Made by a program: the position numbers and the translations under genes. Under the pieces are notes generated by a model. The model was not told the DNA's origin, did not search any database, and saw only the letters and a program-made list of their open reading frames with translations. Of a stretch of DNA of 64,000 nucleotides, positions 49-8,597 are shown piece after piece. This DNA is from Sphingopyxis sp. LC363 (GTDB lineage: Bacteria > Pseudomonadota > Alphaproteobacteria > Sphingomonadales > Sphingomonadaceae), in assembly GCF_000756385.1 (NCBI RefSeq), contig NZ_JNFC01000045.1:124001-188000 (forward strand). The letters are read 5' to 3'. Position 1 is the stretch's first letter; every line of letters starts with the position of its first letter.

Positions 49-1242
49 ATGAACCGCGTCCTATCGCTGCTGCTCGCGCTCTTCCTTCCCTTCGCCGCGC
101 AGGCGCAGGAGGATACCCGCAAGCCCGTTACCATCCTGATCTCGATCGACGGCTTTCGCGCCGACTATCTGGACCGGGGCATCACCCCCCACCTCTCGCG
201 CCTCGCCGCCGAGGGCGCGCATGGCAAGCTGCGTCCTTCCTTCCCGACCAAGACCTTTCCCAATCATTATGCGATGGTCACCGGCAAGCGCCCCGACACC
301 AACGGGATCGTCGGCAACAATATGATCGACCCGCGGCGTCCCGACGTGACGTTCAGCCTCGGCGATCCCAAGCAATCGCTCGATCCCTTCTGGTGGGATG
401 AGGCCGAACCGGCGTGGATTACCGCGGACAAGGCCGGCGTGCGCAGCGCGACGATGTTCTGGCCGGGAAGCGAGGTCGCGATTCACGAGAAGCGGCCGCC
501 CGACTGGCTGCGTTACGACAGGCATGTCGGCTATGCGCAGCGCGTCAACACGATCCTCGACTGGATGCGCCGCCCCTCAGACATTCGCCCCGCCTTCGTC
601 ACCCTCTATTTCGAGGCGGTCGACGATGCCGGGCACCGCTTCGGTCCCGACAGCGCCGAAGTGAACGCCGCGATCACCGAAGTCGACAAGCGCATCGGCG
701 ACCTGACCGCCGGCCTCGCCGCGATAGGCCAGCCCGCGCGCCTGCTGGTCGTCGCCGACCACGGGATGCGCGCGATCGACGAGAGTCGCGTGATCCAGCT
801 CGCCGACCTCGTCGACCTGCCCAGCATCATAGCGGTCGAAACGGGCCCCTATGCGGCGGTCGAGCCCGCAGCGGGCACCGACAACCGGGTCTATGACGCG
901 CTCTTGAAACCGCACGACCATATGAACTGCAACCGCCGCGAAGAGCTGCCGGAGCGGCTGCATTACGGCCGGAATCCGCGCGTCGCCGCGATCATCTGTA
1001 TCGCCGAGCCCGGCTGGTCGATCATCGCGGGCACGCCGAGCTGGCCCGTGAAGGGCGGCGCGCACGGTTATGACAATCAGGACCCCCAGATGCTCGCGCT
1101 TTTCGTCGCGAGTGGCACGGGGTTGAAGGGCGACGTCGGGACGATCGACAATATCGAAGTCTATCCGCTGCTGATGCTGCTTCTCGGCGTCGCGCCGCTG
1201 CCGGGCGACGCGACTGGCGAACTCGCCAAGCGGCTGCCCTGA
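49..1242 (+). CDS. Secreted alkaline phosphatase superfamily protein, nucleotide pyrophosphatase/phosphodiesterase (ENPP) type
   Basis: The 397-residue product begins with a Sec signal peptide (residues 1-20, ending AQA-Q), so it should act in the periplasm or outside. The ENPP signature is intact: metal ligand Asp34 in SIDGF, nucleophile Thr69 in FPTKTFPNHY, then FEAVDDAGH, VVADHGM and GAHGYDN supplying further Asp/His zinc ligands. Members hydrolyse phosphodiester or pyrophosphate bonds of nucleotides and related esters; the substrate here is unknown. An in-frame ATG at position 28 would put seven polar residues before the signal peptide, so the ATG at 49 is preferred. Its stop abuts the stop of the convergent gene at 1243. 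Confidence 0.88.
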   Translation: MNRVLSLLLALFLPFAAQAQEDTRKPVTILISIDGFRADYLDRGITPHLSRLAAEGAHGKLRPSFPTKTFPNHYAMVTGKRPDTNGIVGNNMIDPRRPDVTFSLGDPKQSLDPFWWDEAEPAWITADKAGVRSATMFWPGSEVAIHEKRPPDWLRYDRHVGYAQRVNTILDWMRRPSDIRPAFVTLYFEAVDDAGHRFGPDSAEVNAAITEVDKRIGDLTAGLAAIGQPARLLVVADHGMRAIDESRVIQLADLVDLPSIIAVETGPYAAVEPAAGTDNRVYDALLKPHDHMNCNRREELPERLHYGRNPRVAAIICIAEPGWSIIAGTPSWPVKGGAHGYDNQDPQMLALFVASGTGLKGDVGTIDNIEVYPLLMLLLGVAPLPGDATGELAKRLP

Positions 1243-1764
1243 TCAGTCGCGCAGCACCGCCATCGCGTGGATCGAAGCGGTGGGCGCATTGACGATCTGG
1301 AGCTGGTAGCGCCCCTGCGCCACGTCATATTCGACCATCTTGCGAATGCCCGAACAGGCGGGACCATGGCCGTGGGCGACCGATTTCACGGCGGCGCCGT
1401 CGCGGATGAGGTCGATCCACGCGCCCACGTCGAGCGCGACGATCAGACGCCCCGCCCGCTTCACCTCGATCGGGATCATCCCGCCGAATTTGTGGACGTC
1501 GGGTTTATGCTCGGGTGCGACGCCGTAGCGCAGGCTTTCGAACCTGTGCAGCGGCAACGCGGTCCGCGCCGCGCCGAGCGGCAACCAGTCGGCGCCGAGG
1601 TCGTCGCCATAGGCATAGATCGTCCGGCTCGAGGCATCGCGCGACCAGCCGGCGAGTTCGGGCGGGAGGACGGGCGCCGTCGGACAGGCGGGCGCGGCGG
1701 GCGCCGCGTGGGCCACCACTGGCAAGGCCGCGGCGAGCGATATGGCGATGATCCGGAACCCCAT
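1243..1764 (-). CDS. Hypothetical exported protein
   Basis: This 173-residue protein starts with a clear signal peptide (MGFRIIAISLAAALPVVAHA), indicating export. I do not recognise the family. The mature part is rich in small residues and has one Cys pair (Cys near 26 of the precursor and Cys in GPACSG) that could form a disulfide. The ATG at 1764 has a strong GGGAGG Shine-Dalgarno 7 bases upstream. That site lies inside a sequence resembling the last codons of mutL (see the repeat at 1766-1820), which suggests the gene was once translationally coupled directly to mutL. An upstream in-frame start at 1794 would remove the signal peptide from the N terminus. Confidence 0.75.
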   Translation of the reverse strand: MGFRIIAISLAAALPVVAHAAPAAPACPTAPVLPPELAGWSRDASSRTIYAYGDDLGADWLPLGAARTALPLHRFESLRYGVAPEHKPDVHKFGGMIPIEVKRAGRLIVALDVGAWIDLIRDGAAVKSVAHGHGPACSGIRKMVEYDVAQGRYQLQIVNAPTASIHAMAVLRD

Positions 1765-1765
1765 C

Positions 1766-1820
1766 CTATTTCCTCCCGAACAATTTTTCGACATCCTCCA
1801 TCGCGAGCTTCACCAAAGTC
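1766..1820 (-). repeat. Imperfect duplicate of the mutL 3' end (downstream copy)
   Basis: Bases 1771-1820 match 2171-2220, the true end of mutL, at 38 of 50 positions by hand alignment. Read on the minus strand, this copy encodes VKLAMEDVEKLFGRK then TAG, against VKLDLKNVEKLFGRK then TGA in mutL. The open frame upstream of it has no ATG and is closed about 46 codons earlier. The copy ends 1 base before the ATG of the next gene and supplies its ribosome-binding site. It is best read as a remnant left when the 104-residue orphan gene was inserted behind mutL. Confidence 0.75.
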
Positions 1821-1841
1821 ACGAACTCTTGGTCTTCAAGA

Positions 1842-2156
1842 TCAATAACCGGCAACCCAAGGCTCCGCTTCCAACGCAACCAAATCCCCACGCGCCAAGG
1901 CTTCCATCAATTCCAATAACTTGGCTCGCGGCACATTCTCCATATGTCGCGGTTCATCGTCAGCCTCGACATTCTCAAAATCAACATAGCCGTTCCGCCG
2001 AATACCCAATCCCCACTGACTCTCATGGATTAGCGACACCGATCCGTGCTCCTCATCCTCCGGCCTGTCGTCGAGTTCGTCGAGTAAATTAGGAAAGGCA
2101 GGAATCGGGAGATTAGTCTCGCACCGACCGTATCGATGATAAACGAAATAACTCAT
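1842..2156 (-). CDS. Orphan hypothetical protein, probably acquired
   Basis: A 104-residue acidic, soluble protein with no signal peptide or membrane segment; the family is not recognised. The ATG lies 9 bases after the mutL stop, so it should be co-transcribed and possibly translationally coupled with mutL. Codon use differs from the neighbours: TTA, AGT, ATT, CTA, CGA and AGG are frequent, and the stretch is visibly richer in A+T than the rest of the window. Together with the flanking mutL-tail duplication this suggests horizontal acquisition. Its size, charge and isolation resemble small immunity or accessory proteins, but I see no toxin partner, so that remains speculation. Confidence 0.65.
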   Translation of the reverse strand: MSYFVYHRYGRCETNLPIPAFPNLLDELDDRPEDEEHGSVSLIHESQWGLGIRRNGYVDFENVEADDEPRHMENVPRAKLLELMEALARGDLVALEAEPWVAGY

Positions 2157-2165
2157 ACAGATTGC

Positions 2166-2220
2166 TCACTTCCGCCCGAAAAGTTTTTCTACATTCTTTA
2201 GGTCGAGCTTCACCCAGGTC
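2166..2220 (-). repeat. mutL 3' end, the true copy of the duplicated tail
   Basis: This is the partner of the repeat at 1766-1820 and contains the last codons of mutL (VKLDLKNVEKLFGRK, stop TGA). Both copies place a purine-rich GGGNGGAA sequence just upstream of a start codon (2156 here, 1764 in the other copy). Confidence 0.75.
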
Positions 2221-3986
2221 GGCCGCCCGTGGTTGCACTGGCCCGAATGCGGCGTGACCTCCATCGTGCGGAGCAGTGCGTTCATTTCGGCGACACTCAA
2301 GGTCCGCCCCGCACGCACCGAACCGTGGCATGCCATCGTCGCGGCGACGAGTTCGAGCCGCTCGCTCAGCCCGAGCGCGGCGTCATAGCCCGCAAGATCG
2401 TCGGCGATGTCGGTGACAAGCTTGTGGCAGTCGATGGCGCCGAGCATCGCCGGGGTCGCGCGCACCATCACCGCGGCGGGACCGAAACGCTCAAGCTCGA
2501 CGCCGAGCGCGGCGAGCTGCGGCGCGGCGGCTTCGAGCCGGTCGCACGCGGGCTCGTCGATCTCGACGACCTCGGGCAACAGCAAGCCTTGCGACGGCAC
2601 CGCCTGCCCGCTCATCCCGCGGCGGAGTTGCTCGAGCACGAGCCGCTCGTGGGCGGCGTGCTGGTCGACGATGACGAGCCCGTCCTCGGCCTCGGCGACG
2701 ATATAGGTTTTTGCGATCTGGCCGCGCGCGATGCCGAGCGGATGCGCCTCGGCTCCGGGGACCGGCGCGATCGCCGGCTCGGCGCGGCCCATCGGAAGCG
2801 CATCGCGCGGCGGCGCGAAATCGACGATGCGGTCGTGCAGCAGCGCGGTCGTCCCGGCATCGGCAGCACCGAACATGGATGTGGCCGGGCTTTGCGAGTG
2901 CGCCGGGTGCGGCGCAAACAAGTTTGGCGCCGGCGGCTGCGGCGCGACCGGTTCCTGCTGCCACGCGGCGAGCGCGGCCTCGGGAGGGCGCTGGACGCTG
3001 CGGAAGCCATGCTCGTCGAGCGCGCGGCGGAGGCCCCCGACGATCATCCCGCGAATGAGCTGCGGATCGCGAAAGCGCACCTCGGTCTTCGCCGGATGGA
3101 CGTTCACATCGACCTCGCTCGTCGGCACATCGAGGAACAGCGCCACAACCGGATGGCGATCGCGCGCGAGCAGATCGGCGTAGGCACCGCGCAGCGCGCC
3201 GACGAGCAGCCGGTCCTTCACAGGGCGCCCGTTGACGAACAGATATTGATGATCGGCGATGCCGCGATTGTAGGTCGGCAGGCTGATCACCCCGCCCAGA
3301 TGCACCTCGCCGCGGTCGAGATCGATCCCGATGCTGTTCGCGGCGAGCTCGCGCTGGGTCAGCGCCGCGACGCGCGTGAGCTGGTCCTGTCCGCCCTGCA
3401 CATCGAGCGCGCGGCGCCCGTCATGCTCGACCACGAAAGCGATATCGGGGCGCGCCATCGCGAGCCGCCGCACGGCGTCGAGGCAGGCGGCATATTCGCT
3501 GCGTGCGCTGCGCAGGAATTTGCGCCGCGCCGGCACGCGCGCGAACAGATCCTCGACCATCACGCGCGTGCCCTTTGCGAGCGCCGCGGGGCCTTCGGCG
3601 ACCACCGCGCCATTGTCGACGACGCGTTTCCAGCCGTCGCCGCCCGCGACGCGGCTTTCGAGTGTCAGTCGCGCGACGCTCGCGATCGAGGGCAGCGCCT
3701 CGCCGCGAAAGCCCATCGTTACGACATCCTCGATCGCGTCCGTCGGCAGCTTCGATGTCGCATGGCGTTCGAGCGCGAGCGGCATCTCGGCGGCGGTCAT
3801 TCCGCAGCCGTCATCCTCGACTTCGAGGCGTGAAATCCCGCCCTCGGCGATTCGCACGGAAATGCGAGTCGAACCGGCGTCGATGGCGTTTTCAACCAGT
3901 TCCTTGAGCGCCGCGGCGGGTCTTTCAACCACTTCACCCGCTGCGATCCGATTTACGAGCTTTTCCGGCAGGCGACGTATTGACAT
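2166..3986 (-). CDS. mutL: DNA mismatch repair protein MutL
   Basis: This 606-residue protein couples mismatch recognition by MutS to strand incision and excision. The N-terminal GHKL ATPase domain shows ELVENAIDAGS (residues 29-39), DDGCGM and the GFRGEAL loop. The C-terminal domain carries the endonuclease motif DQHAAHERLVLE (DQHA-X2-E-X4-E) and a Cys/His-containing end (CHGSVRAG, GQCNHGRPTW). It therefore belongs to the nicking MutL class used by bacteria without MutH and Dam-directed repair. The ATG at 3986 is chosen because AGGAG lies just upstream and the protein starts at the conserved IRRLPEKLVNRIAAGEV; an upstream in-frame extension has no family support. It diverges from mreB and leads the two small orphan genes. 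Confidence 0.97.
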   Translation of the reverse strand: MSIRRLPEKLVNRIAAGEVVERPAAALKELVENAIDAGSTRISVRIAEGGISRLEVEDDGCGMTAAEMPLALERHATSKLPTDAIEDVVTMGFRGEALPSIASVARLTLESRVAGGDGWKRVVDNGAVVAEGPAALAKGTRVMVEDLFARVPARRKFLRSARSEYAACLDAVRRLAMARPDIAFVVEHDGRRALDVQGGQDQLTRVAALTQRELAANSIGIDLDRGEVHLGGVISLPTYNRGIADHQYLFVNGRPVKDRLLVGALRGAYADLLARDRHPVVALFLDVPTSEVDVNVHPAKTEVRFRDPQLIRGMIVGGLRRALDEHGFRSVQRPPEAALAAWQQEPVAPQPPAPNLFAPHPAHSQSPATSMFGAADAGTTALLHDRIVDFAPPRDALPMGRAEPAIAPVPGAEAHPLGIARGQIAKTYIVAEAEDGLVIVDQHAAHERLVLEQLRRGMSGQAVPSQGLLLPEVVEIDEPACDRLEAAAPQLAALGVELERFGPAAVMVRATPAMLGAIDCHKLVTDIADDLAGYDAALGLSERLELVAATMACHGSVRAGRTLSVAEMNALLRTMEVTPHSGQCNHGRPTWVKLDLKNVEKLFGRK

Positions 3987-4165
3987 GGCCGCTCTCCTAG
4001 CGCAGTCGAACGCAAATCGCGACCCATCCGCACAGCCCTGATCATTTTGTCCAGCCACCCTCCGTGGACGAGCCGGAATCTCCCCCTGATTGTAGCTGTC
4101 GCCGGCCGGACGCGCGGGTGAAATCACGACAGGGGGCGTGTCCGTCAGGGGCGCGGCTTCGATGA

Positions 4166-5227
<1,062 letters not shown>

Positions 5228-5247
5228 TCGGACGGTAGCGCTTCACT

Positions 5248-6153
5248 ATGGTCCGCCCGGCACATCGACGTCCGGGGCAATCCCGAAAGGCTCAGTACAG
5301 CCTGTTCGTAGCCTATGTCATAGCGGTGACTGGCGCGGTGGCAGGTCTGCTTCTGGCGATCCTGTCGGTCGTTGATCCCGTCGGCTTCGCCCAACTGCGC
5401 GTGGCGAGCCAGGAAATCACCGCGCCGATCGCGCGCGTGACGCGGTCGGTGACCGGATCGCTTTCGGGTATCGACGACAGCGTCGGCGCCTATGTCGGCG
5501 CGGGCACGCAAAACCGGCGGCTGCGCAAGGAACTCGCCGAGACGCGCCGCCAGCTCGTCGCGACCAGCTCGCTGCAGGAAGAGAATCGCCAATTGAAGGC
5601 GCTGCTCAAACTGCAGGAAACCGACAAGACCGCGCTCGCCAACGGGTATCTGCTCACCTCGACGTCGACGAGCGCCAAGCGCATCGCGCTGCTCAGCATC
5701 GGACGCAATCTCGGCGTCGCCGCGGGCCAGCCGGTGCGCGGCGCCGACGGGCTGATCGGCCGCGTGCTGACCTCCGGACCGTCAGTGTCGCAGGTGCTGC
5801 TCCTCACCGACGTCGACAATATCGTTCCCGTCCGGCGCGCGCGCGACGGCCTGCCCGCGCTCGCCAGCGGCCGCGGCAACGGCGATCTCGACGTCCGCAC
5901 GCTCAACATCGCGAACAACCCGTTCAAGCCGGGCGACATCCTCGTGACCTCGGGCACCGGCGGGCTCTATCCGCCGAACATCCCCGTCGCGATCGTGGTA
6001 AGGCGCCAGCACGACGGCGCGCTCGCGCGCCCACTCGCCGATCCGGGCAAGGTCGATGCAGTGGCGGTGCTGCGCCCCTATACGCCCGACAATATCGAGG
6101 CGCAGGGCCGCCCGGCGCCCGCGCCGCTTCCCGCCCCCGCCAGCGCGCCATGA
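5248..6153 (+). CDS. mreC: Rod shape-determining protein MreC
   Basis: MreC is a bitopic inner-membrane protein linking MreB filaments and PBP2. The 301-residue sequence has a short basic cytoplasmic start, one transmembrane helix (about residues 20-42), then a periplasmic coiled coil (about 85-125, NRRLRKELAETRRQL) followed by the beta-domain with GADGLIGRV and DNIVPVRRARDG. The C terminus is Pro/Ala-rich. It lies 20 bases after mreB and overlaps mreD by 4 bases (ATGA). Confidence 0.94.
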   Translation: MVRPAHRRPGQSRKAQYSLFVAYVIAVTGAVAGLLLAILSVVDPVGFAQLRVASQEITAPIARVTRSVTGSLSGIDDSVGAYVGAGTQNRRLRKELAETRRQLVATSSLQEENRQLKALLKLQETDKTALANGYLLTSTSTSAKRIALLSIGRNLGVAAGQPVRGADGLIGRVLTSGPSVSQVLLLTDVDNIVPVRRARDGLPALASGRGNGDLDVRTLNIANNPFKPGDILVTSGTGGLYPPNIPVAIVVRRQHDGALARPLADPGKVDAVAVLRPYTPDNIEAQGRPAPAPLPAPASAP

Positions 6154-6671
6154 AGCAGAAGGGGCCGCGCCTCGGCGAACCGGCATCGCTGTGGCGGATG
6201 CGCATCGTTCCGATCGCGAGCGTGATGTTCGCGTCGGCGGTGCCGCTGATGCTGCCGCTGATCGCCAACTCGCCGGTGCTGCCGCCGCTCGGCCTGCTGT
6301 TTTTCCTGTGCTGGCAATTGCTCCGCTCCGAAATGTGGCCGGTGTGGATCGGCCTACCGCTCGGCCTGTGGGACGACCTGTTCAGCGGCGCCCCGATCGG
6401 CACCGCGGTCGGGCTGTGGACGCTTGCCAGCATCGCGATCGCCTATTCGTCGCAGCGCATCTATTGGCGCGGCTTTTTACACGATTGGGCGATCGCGGCG
6501 CTGCTGATCGCGATCATCCAGTCGCTCGCAGCGCTGATTACCCATCCACAGGCGGACACCCGGCTGGTGCTCGGCCTCGTCGTGCCGCAGATCATCATCT
6601 CGGCGCTGCTCGTGCCGCTGTTCATGCGCCTGACCGGCGCGTTTGACAATTTCCGCCTGAAACGCCGATAA
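6150..6671 (+). CDS. mreD: Rod shape-determining protein MreD
   Basis: The 173-residue product is a polytopic membrane protein with about five hydrophobic helices and the family feature PLGLWDDLFSGAPIG in the middle. It works with MreC in the elongasome. Sequence is poorly conserved in this family, so the call rests on size, topology and position between mreC (4-base overlap) and mrdA. Confidence 0.9.
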   Translation: MKQKGPRLGEPASLWRMRIVPIASVMFASAVPLMLPLIANSPVLPPLGLLFFLCWQLLRSEMWPVWIGLPLGLWDDLFSGAPIGTAVGLWTLASIAIAYSSQRIYWRGFLHDWAIAALLIAIIQSLAALITHPQADTRLVLGLVVPQIIISALLVPLFMRLTGAFDNFRLKRR

Positions 6672-6689
6672 ACTGGTTCCAATCCGCCG

Positions 6690-8597
6690 ATGCCGAAGAA
6701 GAAGAGTCCGCCGATCACCGAAGCCTGGAGGGGCATAACCTTCACCCGCCGCGCGCTCGTCGTCGGCGGGGCGCAGGCGGCGGTCGGCGTCGCGCTCGCG
6801 GCGCGCATGACCTATATTTCGGTGATCGACAATGATCGCTACGTCCTCGAATCGGAAAGCAACCGCGTCAATTTGACGCTGATCCCCCCGCGCCGCGGCT
6901 GGATCGTCGACCGCCATGGCACGGCGCTCGCGAACAATCGCGTTTCGCTCCGCATCGACCTCATTCCCGACCGTCTGCACAACAAGGAGATGGTGCTGGG
7001 GCAGCTCCAGACGCTGCTCCGGCTCGATGGCGATGCGATGGAGCGGATCAATCGCGACCTGAAGGCGGCATCGGGGTTCCAGCCGGTCGCGGTCAAGGAG
7101 GACATGACCGAGGCCGAATATAGCTCGATCCTCGTCCGCCTGCCCGAACTGCCCGGCATCGCGCCGCAGCGCGGCTTTGCACGCAATTATCCGACCGGCG
7201 CCGCGGTCGGCCACCTGATCGGCTATGTCGGCGCCCCGAACGCCGAGGAGTATCAGAAAGCCAAGGATCCGCTGTACATCACGCCCGGCTACAAGATCGG
7301 GAAGGACGGGCTGGAGAAATATTTCCAGGAGATGCTGAAGGGCCAGCCCGGCGCGCGGCGCGTCGAGGTGACGGCGCGCGGCAAGGTCGTCCGCGATCTT
7401 TCCACGCAGCCAGACGTACAGGGCAAGACCGTCCATCTGACGATCGACGCCGGCCTGCAGGAATATGTCGCGCGGCGCATGGGGCGCGAATCGGGCGCGG
7501 CGGTCGTCATCGACTGCCACAATGGCGACATCCTCGCCTTCGTATCGATGCCGAGCTTCGACCCGAACAGCTTTTCCGACGGCATCAGCACCAGCGAATA
7601 TGCGTGGCTGCGCGCCGACGATCACCAGCCGCTGATCAACAAGGCGACGCGCGGCCTCTATCCGCCCGGATCGACGCTGAAACCGATGGCCGCGATCGCC
7701 GCGGTCGAACATGGCGTCGACCCGAGCGAGCGCCACACCTGCATCGGCGGCTACCGTCTCGGCAACCGTTTCTTCCGCTGTCTCGGCACCCATGGCAGCC
7801 TCGACATGCCGTCGGCGATCATGAAAAGCTGCAACAGCTATTTCTACTGGCTCGCGCACCGGCTCGGCTATGATGCCATGGCCCCCACCGCCCGGTTGCT
7901 CGGGCTCGGCGAGGAGTTCCGGCTGGCGGGGAGTAACCAGCGCTATGGCACCATCCCCGACAGCGCGTGGAAAATGCGGAAATACGATCAGCAATGGTCG
8001 GCGTCGGACTCGCTCAACGCGGTCATTGGACAGGGCTATGTCAGCGTCAATCCGCTCCAGCTCGCGGTGATGGCGGCGCGGATCGCATCGGGGCGCAGCC
8101 TCTATCCACGCCTCATCAACCGCGAGTTCGGGAACGAACCGCTGCCCTTCTCGCCCGAAGCGCTCGCCGTCGCGCGGCAGGGCATGGACCTCGTGGTTAA
8201 TGGCGCCGGCACAGCGGTGCGCAGCCGCCTGCCGCTCGACGGCATCACCATGGCGGGCAAAACGGGCACCGCACAGGTGCGCGGGCTCCGCACTGGCAAC
8301 GGTTCAAGCGGAACGTGGAAATTTCGCGATCACGGGCTGTTCGTCGGCTTCGCGCCGGTCGACAATCCGCGTTACGCCACCGGGATCGTGATCGAGCACG
8401 GCATGGGCGGCAGCCGCGCCGCAGCGCCCGTCGCAAGGGATTTCATGACCTATCTGTTCGACCGCGAAAAGGGAATGGAGGCACTCGAGACGCTCGAGGC
8501 CGGCTGGGGCGGGCCGATCAAGGATCGTATGGACCGCGACTATGCCGCATGGAAATCGGGCGCGTCGAGCGACCCCGAGCCCGGAGTGCCGCAATGA
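6690..8597 (+). CDS. mrdA: Penicillin-binding protein 2, peptidoglycan transpeptidase
   Basis: A 635-residue class B PBP that cross-links lateral-wall peptidoglycan with RodA. It has one N-terminal membrane anchor (about residues 22-42), a non-catalytic pedestal region, and the transpeptidase domain with all three motifs: STLK (catalytic Ser, in PPGSTLKPM), SCN (KSCNSYFY) and KTG (AGKTGTAQ). It overlaps rodA by 4 bases, consistent with stoichiometric production of the PBP2-RodA pair. The length is normal for the family. Confidence 0.96.
   Translation: MPKKKSPPITEAWRGITFTRRALVVGGAQAAVGVALAARMTYISVIDNDRYVLESESNRVNLTLIPPRRGWIVDRHGTALANNRVSLRIDLIPDRLHNKEMVLGQLQTLLRLDGDAMERINRDLKAASGFQPVAVKEDMTEAEYSSILVRLPELPGIAPQRGFARNYPTGAAVGHLIGYVGAPNAEEYQKAKDPLYITPGYKIGKDGLEKYFQEMLKGQPGARRVEVTARGKVVRDLSTQPDVQGKTVHLTIDAGLQEYVARRMGRESGAAVVIDCHNGDILAFVSMPSFDPNSFSDGISTSEYAWLRADDHQPLINKATRGLYPPGSTLKPMAAIAAVEHGVDPSERHTCIGGYRLGNRFFRCLGTHGSLDMPSAIMKSCNSYFYWLAHRLGYDAMAPTARLLGLGEEFRLAGSNQRYGTIPDSAWKMRKYDQQWSASDSLNAVIGQGYVSVNPLQLAVMAARIASGRSLYPRLINREFGNEPLPFSPEALAVARQGMDLVVNGAGTAVRSRLPLDGITMAGKTGTAQVRGLRTGNGSSGTWKFRDHGLFVGFAPVDNPRYATGIVIEHGMGGSRAAAPVARDFMTYLFDREKGMEALETLEAGWGGPIKDRMDRDYAAWKSGASSDPEPGVPQ

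Follow-up and report, generated by a model that had tools for sequence, protein, structure and literature searches.

The 3' end of mutL in Sphingomonadaceae is a recurrent point of insertion: comparison of related genomes shows that small units of DNA have entered precisely at the end of the gene, replaced its last codons and brought mostly different cargo from one genome to the next. We propose that these units are non-autonomous cassettes that insert at the mutL 3' end via a site-specific recombinase, a reading to which we assign a probability of roughly 0.6.

The locus described here lies in a window of 64,000 nt from Sphingopyxis sp. LC363 (Table 1), in which the initial annotation had reported a mutL tail duplicated around an inserted gene. 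The duplication is real. Positions 1771-1820 and 2171-2220 are identical at 38 of 50 bases, and a repeat search within the window returned the pair of tails as 51 nt at 76% identity. On its own strand, a 52-nt mutL-tail query finds its second-best match at position 1769 (39/52). No further site there scores above 27 and none on the opposite strand above 28, and shuffled windows (100, one strand, shuffled in blocks of two bases) reach at most 30. The reading frame is also kept as had been described, with the left copy encoding VEKLFGRK-stop and the right copy closing the open mutL frame. The left tail ends 1 nt before an ATG of the exported-protein gene, for which GGGAGGAAA is a plausible ribosome-binding site; the same role proposed for the right tail is less convincing because GGCGGAAG sits further from the ATG of the 104-aa ORF. 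The cassette, originally put at about 345 bp, measures 400 bp from core to core, and GC content is 51% in positions 1821-2170 versus 65% across the window. The exported protein has no match in Pfam or NCBIfam (queried in NCBIfam without its first residue).

Table 1. Features of the LC363 mutL locus. Coordinates are positions in the 64,000-nt stretch of NZ_JNFC01000045.1 (124,001-188,000), Sphingopyxis sp. LC363 (GCF_000756385.1); the mutL start (MSIRRLPEKL) was picked by eye.
Feature	Position	Strand	Basis
mutL, working copy	2166..3986	-	ORF; Pfam MutL_C and DNA_mis_repair
core GGTGAAGCT, proximal junction (attL)	2206..2214	-	sequence comparison
insert-encoded mutL end (LDLKNVEKLFGRK-stop), left cassette end	2166..2205	-	comparison with 14 native references
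cargo ORF, 104 aa, function without assignment	1842..2156	-	ORF
right cassette end, up to distal core	1815..1841	-	sequence comparison
core GGTGAAGCT, distal junction (attR)	1806..1814	-	sequence comparison
displaced native mutL end, stop codon 1766-1768	1766..1805	-	46/48 identity to genus-type tail
exported-protein gene, directly after mutL in the empty state	1243..1764	-	ORF; congener loci

Relatives of LC363 retain the uninterrupted site. mutL was found in 79 of the 80 congener genomes searched, and its stop codon lies 1-2 nt before the exported-protein gene in 16 of the 29 congener loci read; of the other 13, seven have other DNA between the two genes and six lack the exported-protein gene in the part read. 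When the LC363 flanks are joined at the common core, 61-67 of 70 nt from the core match in all seven relatives compared, versus 41-45 of 70 nt for the unjoined site, and each of these seven empty-site relatives has a single tail. The two LC363 tails have different origins. The left tail and its junction (1766-1814) represent the original mutL terminus (46/48 against the genus-type tail) and not the C terminus of an unrelated protein family. The right tail (2166-2214) is an in-frame replacement carried by the insert: at 11 positions it departs from the 14 native references whereas the left copy agrees with them, no position shows the opposite and two are ambiguous. The final 12-13 codons of the working LC363 mutL are derived from the insert. 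These comparisons bear out the history first suggested for the locus, in which mutL was directly followed by the exported-protein gene until an insert arrived that supplied a new mutL end and pushed the original downstream, leaving the restored target and displaced fragment characteristic of islands at gene ends. At five loci (L010, L011, L012, L014 and L023), other genes separate mutL from the exported-protein gene and no second tail was recognized; at two others (G048:C121 and G063:C1:809236-809840), the mutL match is split into two pieces, reflecting a frameshift or an assembly error.

The insertion is no isolated case but belongs to a recurrent class. A degenerate 27-base tail pattern was scanned over 675 distinct genomes (614 belonging to the family, 61 outside it), with up to two mismatches in 80 congeners (76 matched at least once) and up to one mismatch in 397 family members (363 matched) and 397 members of the order (383 matched). 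Tail scans together with inspection of downstream DNA identified double mutL tails in 19 of the 614 family genomes, representing 10 genera, a lower bound because both tails needed to be nearly intact, and a count that leaves out genomes with two matches on opposite strands or on different draft contigs (for example, G344 and G345). None of the 61 genomes of other families had a double tail. Five of the carriers are from the same genus (G000, G013, G062 and G077, plus G032, recognized from its downstream DNA), and 14 are from nine other genera (G092, G126, G169, G232, G314, G324, G361, G418, G440, G455, G527, G534, G555 and G602). Both single-tail relatives and two-tail genomes with other cargo exist. 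The tails are 400-1,498 bp apart in 18 units and about 2,204 bp apart in G418, assuming the overlap between its two contigs that 1,179 identical bases point to. All of the 18 proximal tails compared retain [VI]E[KR]LFGR[KH]-stop. A multicopy element was considered and rejected: one right-end motif was detected in two genomes among 80 congeners and in one among 397 family members, as a single copy at mutL. Extra single tail matches in G002 and G049 correspond to unrelated DNA beside what appears, by eye, to be a tRNA.

The cargo is small and mostly different from unit to unit, with the longest ORF per unit spanning 32-323 aa across 18 units and reaching 330 aa in G418. Seven of 18 cargo proteins scanned against Pfam reach a family cut-off (the G418 protein was scanned over 300 of its 330 residues), and the families represented are DUF2971, DUF6386, Abi_alpha, PilZ, HWE histidine kinase with PAS, glyoxalase-like and PNPOx; matches to MerT and NrsF are weak and below cut-off. 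PADLOC, applied to 10 cargo proteins, returned one with PDC-S47 matches. Given this range of families, our guess is that the cargo is accessory and in part concerned with defence. The 104-aa protein of LC363 has no match in Pfam, PADLOC, NCBIfam or PHROGs. Its sole relative among 80 congeners (57%) is encoded away from mutL (L002, 1501-1812), partial relatives occur on 2 of 72,556 plasmids, and its predicted structure (pLDDT 55.5, pTM 0.43) is too poor for a structure search.

Units at this site have also moved between genomes. G013 and G440 belong to different genera, and their inserts are 93.1% identical over 492 nt, compared with 75.0% for their mutL flanks and no similarity downstream; judged by these identities, the comparison shows that one unit was transferred between genera. 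Conversely, G232 and G534 belong to one genus and their mutL genes are 93.3% identical, yet their inserts have no similarity. The cargo of G314 and G555 is alike in parts, at 73-78%.

We suggest that the mutL 3' end serves as an attachment site in Sphingomonadaceae. Each cassette would carry at one end about 13 codons that open with a block like ACNTGGGTNAAGCT and could serve as the C-terminus of MutL, and recombination at this block would insert the cassette, exchange the last 12-13 mutL codons for the cassette version and push the old end downstream. The enzyme responsible, most likely a tyrosine recombinase, would act in trans and could come, for example, from a phage with the same attachment site. 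The initial annotation had likened the LC363 insertion to the mark left by integrases with gene-terminal attachment sites, while noting that no integrase was visible. The regenerated target and displaced fragment agree with that view, but the units do not encode a recognizable integrase: no recombinase family was found by Pfam in the LC363 cargo or in 18 cargo proteins of other units (the cargo of G013 and G062 was not scanned separately, and that of G169 was scanned in part). The failure to recognize a recombinase in any of the units favors an enzyme acting in trans over its loss in LC363 alone.

A link to phages is suggested by one viral contig of 22.9 kb, the only match to the core-plus-tail pattern. 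Its first 60 or so bases correspond to a distal mutL junction and are followed by phage tail and lysis genes, so that the units have an attachment site in common with this one phage contig, as phage satellites do with a phage. (Four viral scans yielded 0, 1, 1 and 0 stretches, and both matches are to the same contig.) A second record, from an isolate judging by its number, starts just inside the junction and encodes a 200-aa protein identical to the query. An integrase was not seen in the phage ORFs read, in regions that exclude the far end of the first contig. A search of GTDB contigs for relatives of a phage protein confirmed 0 of 40 candidate stretches, and a strict left-end pattern matched no stretch there. 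A blastn search for a plasmid attP produced 181 records, none with at least 80% query coverage, which were taken as chance.

The phage contig, ending as it does in a mutL junction with the same core, would also be expected if the units were relics of larger, integrase-bearing elements (a prophage or conjugative element) that inserted at mutL and were later reduced to one or two genes. We consider this unlikely, since none of the 19 units exceeds 2.2 kb, the same-strand double matches followed up included no pair of tails at prophage distance, and one small unit is common to two genera at 93%, indicating that it moved at its small size or that the loss came first.

How the inserts are joined to mutL bears on whether a dedicated recombinase is involved. 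In the 17 of 19 units for which same-genus references were available, foreign sequence starts at the block ACNTGGGTNAARYT (codons TWVKL) or immediately after it in 11, with the first foreign base at column 20-28, and later in six (G013, G032, G324, G418, G527 and G555), with the first foreign base at column 34-56. Exchange at the core is consistent with 122 tail positions over these 17 units, against 36 that show the opposite and 65 that are ambiguous; some of the contrary positions fall in visibly decayed distal copies (G032, G077, G169 and G527), and five units (G000, G232, G314, G361 and G440) fit core exchange without any contrary site. The right ends have letters in common outside the mutL match: among 20 rows (19 units plus the phage contig), G occurs at -11 in 17, A at -5 in 16, C at -4 and T at -2 in 15, and T at -15 and -12 in 13. 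Binomial figures calculated for these letters take no account of kinship among the rows. Of the common letters, the LC363 right end retains those closest to the core (A, C and T) and lacks the others, including the G at -11. TTA occurs, by eye, 6-9 nt past the new stop in 12 of 19 left ends and is absent in LC363. Terminal inverted repeats, as expected of a transposon, were not found in 18 units (mean z 0.04 versus shuffles).

The six later junctions keep alive the alternative, raised in the initial annotation, of a recombination-based insertion. Incoming DNA, acquired for example by natural transformation, could recombine homologously through its 40-50 nt mutL tail with no dedicated recombinase; the near identity of the two tails in G092 and G324 fits this explanation, which also predicts the constant left edge of the distal copy. 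Further observations do not sit easily with site-specific exchange: despite their common cargo, G013 and G440 diverge over the last 50 or so nt before the core at their right ends and in the 13 nt beyond it, and the mutL match of G602 runs left beyond the core. The letters missing from the two LC363 ends and the lack of double tails in the 61 genomes of other families also count against it. We nevertheless regard homologous recombination as quite improbable, as it does not predict the switch at or just past the core in most units or the letters common to the right ends, and on its own it leaves the frequent carriage of a mutL end by inserts unexplained. We therefore favor site-specific insertion of cassettes by a recombinase.

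An inverted copy of the mutL bases preceding the core lies 33-59 nt past the new stop at the left ends of the G361 and G062 units, and also at the left ends of G020 and G065, where a second tail was not found. Among 25 left ends, the inverted copy outscores every one of 60 shuffles in four, and the same mutL place is involved in nine.

Capture of integron gene cassettes at a secondary site by an integron integrase is very improbable despite the size of the units, their mostly small single ORFs, their varied cargo and the resemblance of the mutL core GTNAAGC to GTTRRRY: no integron integrase exceeded the cut-off in 20 genomes (including 15 of the 19 carriers, the four later-found carriers being outside the test), the 19 right ends show no more folding than shuffles do (mean z -0.36; lowest, G555 at -2.31 and G169 at -2.05), and an attC would leave the carried mutL end unexplained, so membership among integrons was rejected. 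Left ends gave a mean folding z of -0.92 (G314, -4.19).

Motif-flanked small genes also occur elsewhere in some genomes. At L162 (G092:C56:124500-133000), positions 700-7400 contain 15 copies of a GTCYG...CSACCC...GCGGACATT motif between small orphan genes (uncontrolled scan, up to four mismatches), and the orientation of the copies reverses where a 208-aa tyrosine recombinase (Pfam E 2.9e-19) is encoded; this locus looks like a gene-cassette array. The motif has 26 exact places in 11 of 27 genomes, occurring within or beside the mutL units of G092, G126, G378 and G418 and in gene-sized pairs elsewhere in G125, G455 and G602. A related pattern matched seven times in the loci versus none for a reversed control. 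In G602, a 404-aa phage-type integrase adjoins motif-flanked small genes (L155, 2249-3463).

No report of cassettes at the mutL 3' end in Sphingomonadaceae was found in the open-access literature searched. Close parallels include islands of the type detected by Islander, in which the insert restores the split target and the displaced fragment marks the far end, whereas the mutL units target a protein gene, are 0.4-2.2 kb and contain no recognized integrase. Islander targets tRNA and tmRNA genes and requires an encoded integrase (PMC4383910); a search of this design would overlook units of 0.4-2 kb in which a protein gene is restored. SpyCI of Streptococcus pyogenes is likewise mobile DNA at mutL, but it enters the 5' end and disrupts the gene (PMC4701971), while the Sphingomonadaceae units replace the 3' end in frame. 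The integron-like elements at rulB in Pseudomonas also occupy a recurrent, site-specific hotspot in one protein gene with variable cargo; they differ in being 9-16 kb, with three predicted recombinases and a 3-bp repeat, and in apparently not restoring their target gene (PMC4542609). Integron gene cassettes, like the mutL units, are small, mostly single-gene and dependent on an enzyme from elsewhere; the mutL units differ in having no integron integrase over cut-off or folded attC signal and in carrying a gene end. It is possible, and we put it forward tentatively, that the mutL 3' end acts as a gene-capture platform, integron-like in effect but without an integrase, at which recombinase-less, mostly single-gene cassettes, each bringing a working MutL C-terminus, would be exchanged between genera by a phage-shared recombinase.

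A simple test for double tails finds such small units, and among the small genes that they carry is one with a relationship to abortive infection. Together, our data suggest that mobile DNA has time and again exchanged the C-terminus of a mismatch-repair protein without breaking its reading frame.
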